Below are positions 8,618-56,590 of a stretch of DNA of 64,000 bases, piece by piece. Every line of letters begins with the position of its first letter. Position 1 is the stretch's first letter. The notes under the pieces are model-generated. The model ran no database searches, had not been told where the DNA came from, and saw only the letters and a list, made by a program, of their open reading frames with translations. The stretch lies in contig NZ_CP133480.1 in assembly GCF_031195445.1 (NCBI RefSeq), forward strand, positions 4,704,501-4,768,500, read 5' to 3'. The position numbers and the translations under genes are program-made. This stretch comes from Acuticoccus sp. MNP-M23 (lineage in GTDB: Bacteria > Pseudomonadota > Alphaproteobacteria > Rhizobiales > Amorphaceae).

Positions 8618-9535
8618 TTGTCCCGAATCCGTATTGCTCATCTGTCCGACCTCCATCTCGGCCCCCTGCCGCGTCCGCCAGTCACGGCGCTCATGTCCAA
8701 GCGCGTGTTCGGCTACCTGAACTGGCTGCGCAACCGGCGCGGCTCGCTGGATGAAGCGATCCTCGAGGCGCTGATCGGCGACATCAAGAGCCGCAACGTC
8801 GATCATGTTTGCGTCACCGGAGACCTGGTGAACATCGCTCTGCCGCAGGAATATGAAACGGCAGCTTCGGTGCTGGCGCGGCTCGGGCCGCCAGACAAGG
8901 TGAGCCTGGTGCCCGGTAACCACGATGCCTACGTGCCCGGCGCCCTCAAGGCGGCGAAGGCGGCCTGGGCGCCCTACATGTCCGGCGACGACGGGGTGCA
9001 GAATTTCCCCTATTTGCGGCGGCGGGGGGATGTGGCGTTCATCGGCATTTCCACCGCTGTGGCAACCCCGCCCCTTTCGGCGCGCGGCCGGGTGGGCGTG
9101 ACCCAGCGCGAGCGCCTCGCCACCCTGCTCGACCGTGTGGATGATGCCTACAAGGTGATTCTCATTCACCATCCGCCGGACGATGAGCTCGCCACCGGGC
9201 ATCGCGGCCTGTCGGACCACGCCGAGGTGTCGCGCATCCTGTCAGAGGGTTGCGCCGATCTGGTGCTGTTCGGGCACAATCACGAATGGTCGGTCACACG
9301 GCTGGACACGCCGCGCGGCGCAGCGCCGATGATCGGCGTGCCGTCCGCCTCGTCGGACGGGTCCAAGCACGCAGCCGCCGGCTATGCGCTTTGCGACATC
9401 GACACGGCAGACCGCACCATCCGCCTTGCCCGCCGCACCTACGATGCGGACGCCGGCGCCATGCGCACCGTGGAGAAGATGGTGCTGGAACACCGGGACC
9501 CTGCGGCGGAAGACGTACGGATCGCTGCCCGCTGA
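8618..9535 (+). CDS. Calcineurin-like metallophosphoesterase
   Basis: The protein carries all the metal-binding motifs of the calcineurin-like phosphoesterase family in order: SDLHLG at the N-terminus, GDLVN, GNHD, HHPP and GHNHEW. It would use a dinuclear metal centre to hydrolyse phosphodiesters or monoesters; the 3',5'-cyclic nucleotide phosphodiesterase-like subgroup is possible. The start is uncertain. I prefer the TTG at 8618, which has GGAG eight bases upstream and begins two residues before the conserved RIRIAHLSD strand; GTG 8609 and ATG 8546 are alternatives. It ends at a strong shared terminator. Confidence 0.82.
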   Translation: MSRIRIAHLSDLHLGPLPRPPVTALMSKRVFGYLNWLRNRRGSLDEAILEALIGDIKSRNVDHVCVTGDLVNIALPQEYETAASVLARLGPPDKVSLVPGNHDAYVPGALKAAKAAWAPYMSGDDGVQNFPYLRRRGDVAFIGISTAVATPPLSARGRVGVTQRERLATLLDRVDDAYKVILIHHPPDDELATGHRGLSDHAEVSRILSEGCADLVLFGHNHEWSVTRLDTPRGAAPMIGVPSASSDGSKHAAAGYALCDIDTADRTIRLARRTYDADAGAMRTVEKMVLEHRDPAAEDVRIAAR

Positions 9536-11828: not shown

Positions 11829-11905
11829 GGCGGAGTAGCTCAGCTGGTTAGAGCAGCGGAATCATAATCCGCGTGTCGGGGGTTCGAGTCCCTCCTCCGC
11901 TACCA
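11829..11905 (+). tRNA. tRNA with CAU anticodon (probably elongator tRNA-Met)
   Basis: A complete 77-nt cloverleaf is visible: acceptor stem GGCGGAG with CTCCGCT (one G-U pair), D arm GCTC/GAGC, anticodon stem GCGGA/TCCGC with CAT at 11863-11865, T arm GGGGG/TCCCT-like with TTCGAGT, and an encoded CCA at 11903-11905. The first acceptor pair argues against initiator tRNA, which has a mismatch there. A lysidine-modified tRNA-Ile(CAU) cannot be excluded by eye, but the sequence resembles alphaproteobacterial tRNA-Met. Confidence 0.9.
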
Positions 11906-55569: not shown

Positions 55570-56050
55570 CCCAATCGAGGGGCGGACGACACGTCCGCAC
55601 TCAACCTAGGGGGAGCCTTCGGCAGAGGAACAGAACCCTAGAGTACCTACGGTAGATTTTCAATGTATGATTTTATCTGTCCCGGTATTTTCGGCAGGCA
55701 TTTGGCTGGTTTCGTCCAGTGATTGCAGCGGCAATTTGACTATTATCAACCGTAACGTCAATTGTCTTTTTGTCACCAAGTGGTGCGGAAATCGGTTACA
55801 TATCCCAATCAGCGGCTGTACGGCTGAATTTGTATGATTAGCATATAGGATAATCCCGCGCTGTGGAGCTATCCGACGATCAATTTAAACGGAAATATGA
55901 CCGATCCAGGCAAATTTCATGTATGAAAATGAAGGTATTCAACCTTTGCATGCCTCCCCTGCATTTGACCCGGTTTTACCACAGGCAAATTCACAGAGTT
56001 GCGCTTGCCACTTTACGCCGCCGATTCGAACTGCTAGTCACCGCCCCGTT
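55570..56050. other. AT-rich non-coding stretch before the split tRNA
   Basis: These 481 bases, between the divergent XRE and tRNA genes, have no gene I can support. They are distinctly AT-richer than the rest and include a small perfect hairpin GCGGACG/CGTCCGC at 55582-55598 that could be an operator or leader of the XRE gene. An unannotated small RNA cannot be ruled out. Confidence 0.5.
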
Positions 56051-56344
56051 GCCGCAGTAGCTCAGTGGTAGAGCGCACCCTTGGTAACAACATTGCCTCC
56101 CACACGGGAAACCGTGTGGTGTAAATCGCTCAAATTCGGGGAAAGCTGCTTCCGCTGCCAATCCCGAGCCAAGCCCGCCACGGCGGGACGGTGTAGAGAC
56201 TAGACGGGCGGCGCCCTCCCTCTCCTCAGGAGAGCGGGCGAAGGGATAGTCCAGACCACGAACGCACGGGCCTTCCGTGCGGCGGCGAAAGCCGAAGTGG
56301 TATGAAGGGTGAGGTCGGGAGTTCAATCCTCCCCTGCGGCACCA
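56051..56344 (+). tRNA. tRNA-Thr(GGU) interrupted by a group I intron
   Basis: Joining exons 56051-56085 and 56305-56344 gives a perfect 75-nt tRNA: acceptor GCCGCAG/CTGCGGC, D arm GCTC/GAGC with loop AGTGGTA, anticodon stem CACCC/GGGTG with loop TTGGTAA (anticodon GGT), T arm GGGAG/CTCCC with loop TTCAATC, discriminator A and encoded CCA. The anticodon reads ACC and ACU threonine codons. The loop is split after U36 by 219 bases. As the GGU tRNA-Thr is usually single-copy, splicing should be required for growth. Confidence 0.93.
56086..56304 (+). ncRNA. Group I self-splicing intron (IC3-like) within tRNA-Thr
   Basis: This is an ORF-less 219-nt ribozyme. The 5' splice follows a U and the last base is G (omega-G). 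GCC at 56095-56097 can serve as guide for the exon GGU, with a U-G pair at the splice site. P2 is CACACGG/CCGTGTG with a GAAA loop (56101-56118). Core elements are GAGCCAAG (56166-56173) and GTGTAGAGACTAGAC (56191-56205). P7 is GACTA (56198-56202) with TAGTC (56247-56251). P9 is CGGC/GCCG with a GAAA loop (56283-56294). Several blocks match my memory of the Azoarcus tRNA-Ile intron almost base for base. Confidence 0.92.
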
Positions 56345-56590
56345 GCACAATCACGCGCATCTGAAGCCATGTCAGCCACCTGAGCTGCGCATGCAGCGTT
56401 GGCGGCCGGTCGACGGCTGAAACGAGCGCGAATCATCTACAGCGGACCGAGCGTTGCCCAGAGCAAGCGGCACGAGGCGCTCAGCGCGGCGCGATGACGA
56501 GCGATTGTCCATCGCTCGCCCGTACCGCGCCCGATCTTGTTCGGGCGCCTCTTCGCGCTGGCAGCGCGCCCCGAAAGGGCGCGCCCGATA

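Follow-up and report, generated by a model that had tools for sequence, protein, structure and literature searches.

A group I intron in the anticodon loop of the tRNA-Thr(GGU) gene of Acuticoccus sp. MNP-M23

The window, by which we mean the whole 64,000-nt stretch of the Acuticoccus sp. MNP-M23 genome that was analysed, contains at 56051-56344 a tRNA-Thr(GGU) gene that is split after U36 by a group I intron of 219 nt (56086-56304). We are highly confident that this is a functional, ORF-less intron of the kind found in proteobacterial tRNAs, its splicing being predicted by comparative analysis. The tRNA has a complete cloverleaf, the GGU anticodon and an encoded CCA; no competing copy was found, and its expression is a prediction. 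Comparison with related genes establishes the predicted anatomy of the intron, the positions of its splice sites and the conservation of its fold. The features are as follows (all on the plus strand; pair counts refer to 15 tRNA-Thr(GGU) genes described below).

56051 to 56085, plus strand: 5′ exon of tRNA-Thr(GGU) up to and including the anticodon GGT, whose U36 is the 5′ splice site (ARAGORN; identical to the intronless gene in genome G008).
56086 to 56304, plus strand: group I intron, 219 nt, whose last base G is the omega-G (56304) (RF00028, 44.4 bits; ARAGORN i(36,219); boundaries fixed by genome G006 and locus L222).
56305 to 56344, plus strand: 3′ exon of tRNA-Thr(GGU), CCA encoded (ARAGORN; intronless G008 gene).
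56083 to 56085, plus strand: P1 exon strand GGU, whose U36 forms the U.G wobble of the splice site (by sequence pairing).
56095 to 56097, plus strand: guide (IGS) GCC, pairing with GGU; present in 12 of the 12 Thr(GGU) introns whose detection left the guide free, the other 3 of the 15 having been found by a pattern that requires GCC.
56093 to 56094, plus strand: UU before the guide, able to form P10 with the AA that opens the 3′ exon (56305-56306); 14 of 15 Thr(GGU) introns allow both pairs.
56100 to 56119, plus strand: P2 hairpin (56100-56107/56112-56119) with GAAA loop 56108-56111; 8 of 8 pairs have two-sided changes (n = 15) and 91.7% of cells are paired.
56126 to 56131, plus strand: P3 5′ strand (3′ strand 56206-56211); 100% paired, with double changes in 2 of 6 pairs.
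56136 to 56167, plus strand: P4 (56136-56140/56163-56167), invariant, and P5 (56145-56146/56157-56158), in which one pair is C-G for G-C in 7 of 15.
56168 to 56192, plus strand: P6 (56168-56170/56190-56192), invariant, and P6a (56174-56177/56184-56187), with double changes in 2 pairs.
56198 to 56202, plus strand: P7 5′ strand GACTA (3′ strand TAGTC, 56247-56251), the guanosine-binding helix; 100% paired, one pair being C-G for U-A in 5 of 15.
56213 to 56239, plus strand: P8 hairpin with base 56213-56216/56236-56239; double changes in 3 of 4 pairs, 95% paired.
56256 to 56300, plus strand: P9 region, comprising P9 (56256-56259/56297-56300), P9.1 and P9.2 (56283-56286/56291-56294) with GAAA loop 56287-56290; structure counted on 15 genes.

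ARAGORN run without introns on the whole window reports only a tRNA-Met at 11829, and RF00005 at its gathering threshold likewise does not report the split gene. With introns allowed, ARAGORN gives 'tRNA-Thr (ggt)i(36,219)' at 56051-56344. This agrees with an earlier reading of the sequence alone (the sequence-only reading), which had seen in the two halves a perfect tRNA-Thr and had proposed an intron-aware tRNA search and a search with the Rfam group I model as checks. The latter, RF00028, matches 56076-56270 (model positions 1-253) with 44.4 bits and an E-value of 3.9e-10 for 501 bases searched; genome-wide the E-value at the intron is 9.4e-10, and no other match in the genome reaches E ≤ 10. 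This score lies below the curated RF00028 cut-off of 50 bits, which is why a window scan at gathering thresholds is silent at the intron, and default annotation therefore misses tRNA and intron together. The best RF00028 match is also under 50 bits in 25 of the 33 matching genomes of our order sample. Compared with 200 dinucleotide shuffles, the 294-nt gene has a fold 3.81 sd below their mean, and none of them (0/200) folds as well.

A group I intron is expected to start after a U and to end in G, a rule that places the splice sites after U36 (56085) and after G56304. Intron and 3′ exon both begin with AA, which leaves a 2-nt ambiguity from the window DNA alone. The shift is resolved by two other genomes: in G006 a C stands directly after GGT, so that the 5′ exon there ends with GGT, and G008, from the family's other genus, has an intronless tRNA-Thr(GGU) gene identical at 75 of 75 nt to the predicted spliced product. 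The intronless gene also fixes the omega-G (56304) for the window; in other loci an omega-G was a condition of the splice finder and so is not independent there. The flanks of the G008 gene have no blastn match to the window, so the two genes seem not to be at the same place. G009, of the same genus as G008, has an intronless Thr(GGU) gene too, 84% identical.

The fold was counted on 15 Thr(GGU) genes: the eight of the genus, L073 (G257), L217 (G419), L220 (G566), L251 (G471), and three from metagenomes, L077 (Magnetovibrio sp.), L102 (Alphaproteobacteria bacterium HKST-UBA19) and L118 (Bradyrhizobiaceae bacterium MAG-132). Standard pairs make up 98.2% of the 1071 cells in these genes, and 34 of 72 pairs show two-sided changes: in the intron helices 25 of 51 pairs, in the tRNA stems 9 of 21. 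None of 500 shuffles reached any of five covariation measures. Sliding the pairing partners by 1-3 columns left 33-44% paired, a control that favours the structure somewhat, since the structure was written from the window sequence; the double changes in P2, P5, P7, P8, P9, P9.1 and P9.2 are independent of that bias. P3, P4, P6, P7 and P9 are 100% paired in all 15 genes, and the covarying pairs form P3-P9 including the P3/P7 pseudoknot. P1 and P10 seem partly broken in L077 and L102 because the alignment is shifted there; read directly, both have the guide GCC, and L077 is the sole exception to a complete P10 (14/15). Together with the RF00028 match, the covarying P3-P9 bear out the complete group I core that had been claimed for the insert, and the GAAA loops of P2 and P9 (the latter in P9.2) and the GACTA/TAGTC of P7 are present as described.

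P5 is short and has no P5abc extension, and P2 and P9.2 are GAAA-capped; the intron is a candidate member of the IC3 subgroup. The only listed ORF of at least 80 aa over the intron is antisense (55991-56350, minus strand) and spans the whole tRNA. As 219 nt leave no room for an endonuclease, present-day homing is unlikely. Two other intron classes were weighed, an archaeal-type tRNA intron spliced by proteins and a group II intron. The one point for them is that the tRNA is split one nucleotide off the usual archaeal position; RF00028 is the sole intron family over the stretch among 4227 Rfam families scanned, the insert is 219 nt long and lies in a bacterium, and the covarying helices are those of a group I intron. 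On the Rfam scans and the covarying fold we ruled both classes out, their probability being negligible.

A second, intact tRNA-Thr(GGU) gene had been named in the sequence-only reading as evidence that would speak against it; it was looked for genome-wide and none was found. The 42 RF00005 matches over cut-off elsewhere in the genome, read with ARAGORN, include Thr(UGU) and Thr(CGU) and no Thr(GGU), leaving the split gene the only one found, and a genome search with the spliced tRNA matched only its two halves. The assembly may be incomplete, and a second copy is conceivable, since tRNA-Ala(UGC) and tRNA-Ile(GAU) were not found in it and 16S rRNA gave no match; the same 16S search missed 5 of 14 control genomes too. 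Among the 761 threonine codons counted in window ORFs, ACC and ACU account for 404, and ACC is the commonest (378). Tobacco plastids live without tRNA-Thr(GGU) through superwobbling by tRNA-Thr(UGU), with severely retarded growth (PMC3499367, in part); the gene is therefore better called important than strictly essential, and an unspliced copy need not be lethal. A crude scan gave no sigma-70-like promoter for this gene (0.3 expected by chance).

One could accordingly suppose a decayed or inactive intron in a silent relic gene, with ACC and ACU read by tRNA-Thr(UGU) or by an unseen copy. Such a relic might well score below the RF00028 cut-off and have no promoter-like site, the 16S rRNA and two tRNAs not found in the assembly leave room for the copy, and the survival of the plastids by superwobbling shows how decoding could be managed (PMC3499367, in part). 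Those plastids grow poorly, however, and the helices of the intron are kept by double changes, with P3, P4, P6, P7 and P9 fully paired in every one of the 15 genes, which is not expected of relics; moreover the exons are unchanged in 8 of 8 genus genomes and identical to the intronless G008 gene. We regard a relic as very improbable and take the intron to be functional.

For this functional intron the following course of splicing is proposed. In the precursor the guide GCC would pair with the anticodon GGU as P1, through two G-C pairs and a U.G wobble, and P3-P9 would fold into the catalytic core. A free guanosine bound in P7 would attack after U36 and release the 5′ exon. The guide and the UU/AA P10 would keep this exon in place for its own attack after the omega-G (56304), which would yield a normal 75-nt tRNA-Thr. 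We infer this two-step, guanosine-initiated splicing, proceeding without a helper, because a relative behaves in this way: the Bartonella bacilliformis tRNA-Arg(CCU) intron (BbgpI) splices in vivo and, in vitro, does so on its own (PMC7717549, in part). Splicing could instead depend on a host protein such as tyrosyl-tRNA synthetase or an RNA chaperone, making the intron group I in fold and not autonomous in the cell. Such factors are described for other group I introns (PMC3984707, in part), and some need of a cofactor in vivo is presumed for all of them in the Bartonella work itself (PMC7717549, in part); the self-splicing of the Bartonella relative in vitro speaks against it, and we consider dependence on a helper unlikely, though clearly less so than a relic.

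The intron is not, as the sequence-only reading had it, very small. The 77 tRNA introns that we collected range from 193 to 421 nt with a median of 225, and 32 of them are 219 nt or shorter, so that its length is ordinary and the claim was dropped.

Bacterial tRNA hosts of group I introns already described include Leu(UAA) and fMet (PMC5733544, PMC4033280), fMet and Ile2(CAU) (PMC8450103), and Arg(CCU) (PMC7717549), each source being cited in part. Among the open-licence papers listed by our searches, none describes in its title or abstract a group I intron in a bacterial tRNA-Thr(GGU); the tables of a group I intron database (PMC11835236, in part) may hold such introns. Inserts of 22-49 nt in cyanobacterial tRNAs for Arg, Gly and Lys have been termed group I introns and claimed to widen the range of tRNA hosts (PMC5733544, in part). 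These are in our judgement too short for a group I core, unlike the window intron, which has the whole of it. The closest known introns are three. The Arg(CCU) introns of alphaproteobacteria (Agrobacterium; BbgpI, PMC7717549) are like the Thr intron in size and in site (after U36); the Arg(CCU) loci examined also have UU before the guide and a 3′ exon starting with AA, as in Thr(GGU), but their guide is GGG rather than GCC. The Leu(UAA) introns, in the commonest host (40 of 77), have the same core blocks as the Thr intron but lie after U34 with the guide GAG for CUU, whereas the Thr intron lies after U36 with GCC for GGU. The tRNA-Ile(CAU) intron of Azoarcus BH72, the IC3 ribozyme of the crystal structure, is about 205 nt long, with GAAA-capped P2 and P9 and also after U36, and its core is probably much like that of the window intron; it differs in host and guide. 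Paquin, Heinfling and Shub reportedly treated the transposition of the Arg(CCU) intron in 1999, to go by their title. Our verdict is that tRNA-Thr(GGU) is a real new host for a known kind of intron, and not something categorically new.

RF00028 matches at E ≤ 0.01 in 8 of the 8 genus genomes examined and in neither of two genomes of the family's other genus, and all eight matches are the same intron in tRNA-Thr(GGU). The window neighbours are, by Pfam, fumarase C, a helix-turn-helix protein, DUF423 and an S41 peptidase; around the seven other genus loci (1.5-kb flanks) there is fumarase C in 7/7, the helix-turn-helix protein in 7/7, DUF423 in 6/7 and the S41 peptidase in 1/7, where the flank reaches. 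Because all eight genomes carry the same intron among shared neighbours, inheritance within the genus is its simplest explanation. No differences occur among the eight in the tRNA exons; the intron varies, mostly in P2, P6a, P8 and P9.1. In genome G005 of our collection (G005:C246, L246:1501-2691) we also observed the 3′ half of an intronless-type tRNA-Thr(GGU) directly after a phage-integrase-family gene (Pfam PF00589, E 6.6e-30), as would be seen at the attachment site of an element that has integrated; in G005's own gene the intron interrupts the corresponding loop.

Farther afield, 33 of 297 genomes in the order sample match RF00028 at E ≤ 1e-4. The 34 matches fall in Leu(UAA) (20), Thr(GGU) (9, of which 8 are from the genus), Arg(CCU) (2) and Leu(CAA) (1), and the remaining 2, both in G172, lie in no recognisable tRNA. 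The G172 matches (L054 and L256, G172:C36) are strong, with 89 and 82 bits, and about 1.5 kb apart; ARAGORN finds no tRNA there. In the class sample 31 of 385 genomes match, with Thr(GGU) as host in at least four including the window's own (three loci were left unplaced), and in the phylum sample 32 of 398 match, the window's own being the only Thr(GGU) among the loci fetched and placed. A pattern scan of named genomes gave at least 119 stretches, 11 of which passed the screen; among the matches listed, these 11 were six introns in Thr(GGU) (L077, L102, L118, L176, L192 and L194), one in Thr(UGU), one in Leu(CAA) and three chance matches (L105, L127 and L164). The six Thr(GGU) introns among the listed matches are all on contigs filed as Alphaproteobacteria, L176 being from the SAR116 cluster, L192 from Rhodospirillales and L194 from Hyphomicrobiales; these last three are outside all alignments, trees and the counts of 77 introns. 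The scan pattern required GCC after TTGGT, so its six Thr(GGU) introns are no test of the guide. Thr(GGU) is a scattered minority host, yet it is the host in every examined genome of this genus.

The 77 split tRNA genes have as hosts Leu(UAA) in 40 cases, Thr(GGU) in 15, Arg(CCU) in 8, Leu(CAA) in 4, Lys(UUU) in 3, Lys(CUU) in 2, CAU (Met/Ile) in 2, apparently Arg(UCU) in 2 (L258 and L260, both uncertain) and Thr(UGU) in 1. Three of the Leu loci and one Arg locus were assigned by hand, and L054, L195, L197, L219, L256, L257 and L265, without a split tRNA, were excluded from these host counts. The guide follows the host: it is GCC in 15 of 15 Thr(GGU) introns (12 of 12 counting only those found without asking for the guide), GAG in 40 of 40 Leu(UAA), GGG in 8 of 8 Arg(CCU) (in seven within the first 22 nt, in L210 further in) and GTG in both CAU introns (L261 and L263, from other proteobacteria); in some Lys introns the match is weak. 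The guide position was picked as the one that pairs, hence a blind count in nt 4-18 was added. There GAG or GGG occurs in 0 of 15 Thr(GGU) introns, and in Leu(UAA) introns GAG occurs in 40 of 40 and GGG in 1 of 40; GCC occurs in 15 of 15 Thr(GGU) but also in 22 of 40 Leu(UAA), so that the GCC count alone does not discriminate. The first TTGNN reads GCC in 14 of 15 Thr(GGU), GAG in 26 of 40 Leu(UAA) and GGG in 6 of 8 Arg(CCU). P10 tracks the host in places only: of the 74 introns that have a guide, 52 form both pairs, as do 25 of the 40 in Leu(UAA), and the sole Thr(UGU) intron has AC before the guide and GU in the 3′ exon. The fit of the guide GCC to the exon GGU, noticed earlier in the window alone, thus recurs in 12 of 12 Thr(GGU) introns, within a core common to introns of other tRNAs whose guides differ by host. 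As a pattern across these genes, guide retargeting is well supported.

Several less usual hosts were seen along the way. In a metagenome genome of Thiobacillus sp. (L104:3456-3748), a group I intron splits tRNA-Thr(UGU) after U34, with guide GAG and P10 AC/GU; RF00028 aligns with its core only (31.7 bits). Introns of the same family lie in tRNA-Lys(UUU) and tRNA-Lys(CUU) genes of alphaproteobacterial genomes (L201, L207, L209, L218 and L221). Four introns in tRNA-Leu(CAA) (L057, L111, L208 and L252) stand after U33, three of them with guide GGT; that of L252 is 421 nt long.

Trees were built on the intron without the guide region. Tree A has 72 rows (without L210, L252, L258, L260 and L261), tree B 69 (leaving out L198, L208 and L263 as well), and tree C 71 (L210 restored; without L198, L252, L258, L260, L261 and L263). 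Tree A groups the eight genus introns in a starred clade (99/86). An unstarred branch (82/92) joins the main Thr cluster, 12 introns, to Lys introns; the pair L220/L251 and L102 are placed away from the other Thr introns, and most Arg(CCU) introns are apart from the genus cluster. The starred set around the genus holds 18 Leu(UAA) introns among its 38 rows in tree A and 12 among 22 in tree C. Tree C puts L210, an Arg(CCU) row with a long branch, within the Thr cluster of the genus (99/94), a placement that we do not trust on account of that branch length, yet one that counts against a pure Leu(UAA) origin. With common core blocks and starred sets that include Leu(UAA) rows, the introns in Leu(UAA) and Arg(CCU) test as sharing ancestry with that in Thr(GGU), and we conclude from these comparisons that the latter is kin to Leu(UAA)-type and Arg(CCU)-type introns, differing in its guide.

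The intron would probably have arrived in tRNA-Thr(GGU) from another tRNA by a change of guide, perhaps through reverse splicing; reverse splicing and recombination between tRNA genes are both plausible routes for a change of host. The sequence-only reading had suggested that the ribozyme moved to a new tRNA in this way. The guide-follows-host pattern upholds that suggestion; the trees disagree in detail on donor and number of entries. Thr(GGU) may have gained a Leu(UAA)-type intron only once, which then spread by inheritance or by transfer of the entire tRNA gene, without repeated switching of guides into tRNA-Thr(GGU). The AU test does not reject a single clade of all 15 Thr(GGU) introns (p 0.444 in tree B and 0.175 in tree C), and the starred sets that hold the genus are rich enough in Leu(UAA) rows (18/38 and 12/22) to suit such a donor. 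Set against this, given the starred branches, the Thr label must change at least 2 times in trees A and B and 4 times in tree C, L220/L251 and L102 stand away from the rest in tree A, and an Arg(CCU) row lies among the genus rows in tree C. We judge a single gain to be a strong contender that falls somewhat short of an even chance. More tentatively, and with less likelihood than the single gain, the introns could represent a guide-switching ribozyme that spreads among tRNAs without an endonuclease, having moved into Thr(GGU) at least twice and into Thr(UGU), Lys(UUU), Lys(CUU) and Leu(CAA), besides Arg(UCU) and Asn(GUU) on viral contigs, always directly behind an anticodon-loop U with a guide able to fit, and with intron-bearing phage genes as its vehicles between bacteria.

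Relatives of the intron were also observed on plasmids and phages. A plasmid of Citrobacter freundii (pCTX-M3, L271:1429-1727) and one of Klebsiella (L272:1449-1745) each carry a tRNA-Leu(UAA) gene split by a group I intron of the same family, with no annotated feature, about 0.65 kb from an aac(3)-IId resistance gene in both; 1270 plasmid records match the intron at 60-90% identity, of which these two were examined. The likeness of the plasmid tRNA-Leu(UAA) gene to alphaproteobacterial tRNAs hints at the possible origin of that segment. The Gordonia phage Daredevil (NC_048021.1, L273:881-1192) has, near an integrase gene, an unannotated tRNA-Lys(UUU) gene whose 238-nt intron has the same core; RF00028 does not report this intron at E ≤ 0.001. 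A 2014 review states that all phage group I introns then seen lay in protein genes (PMC3984707, in part). A plasmid or phage origin of the window copy was considered and rejected, as no plasmid or phage record covers 80% of the gene.

Viral contigs (L274-L446) match the core pattern in at least 120 stretches. Among the matches listed, 55 of 127 viral core windows give a split tRNA, 17 of these without a clear host; the hosts placed among them include Leu(UAA), Arg(UCU), Asn(GUU), Arg(CCU) and Lys, and none was placed as Thr(GGU). One (L299) is Thr(GGU) according to ARAGORN and Asn(GUU) according to the splice finder. Some of these contigs exceed 250 kb, and others may be host DNA. Four viral contigs (L399, at about 8840-9057 on the minus strand, L419, L429 and L436) have introns of the same core after ...TTGGT with guide GCC. 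L399, the one of these four that was checked, has no tRNA by ARAGORN, and its intron lies between two same-strand ORFs that resemble, by eye, the halves of a phage structural protein. When 81 viral rows were included in a quick tree, L049 (of the genus) had only Thr(GGU) introns of the genus as its five nearest rows; with the many long branches, this is weak evidence.

In practice, default ARAGORN and Rfam cut-offs overlook the sole tRNA-Thr(GGU) gene found in this genome, and genomes can therefore seem to be without a tRNA for ACC. The known hosts of bacterial group I introns gain one tRNA. With it comes a comparative set in which the guide tracks the host, the pattern that would be expected if tRNA introns switch hosts by guide mutation and reverse splicing, and the long-standing idea of such host switches becomes testable with small in vitro constructs.
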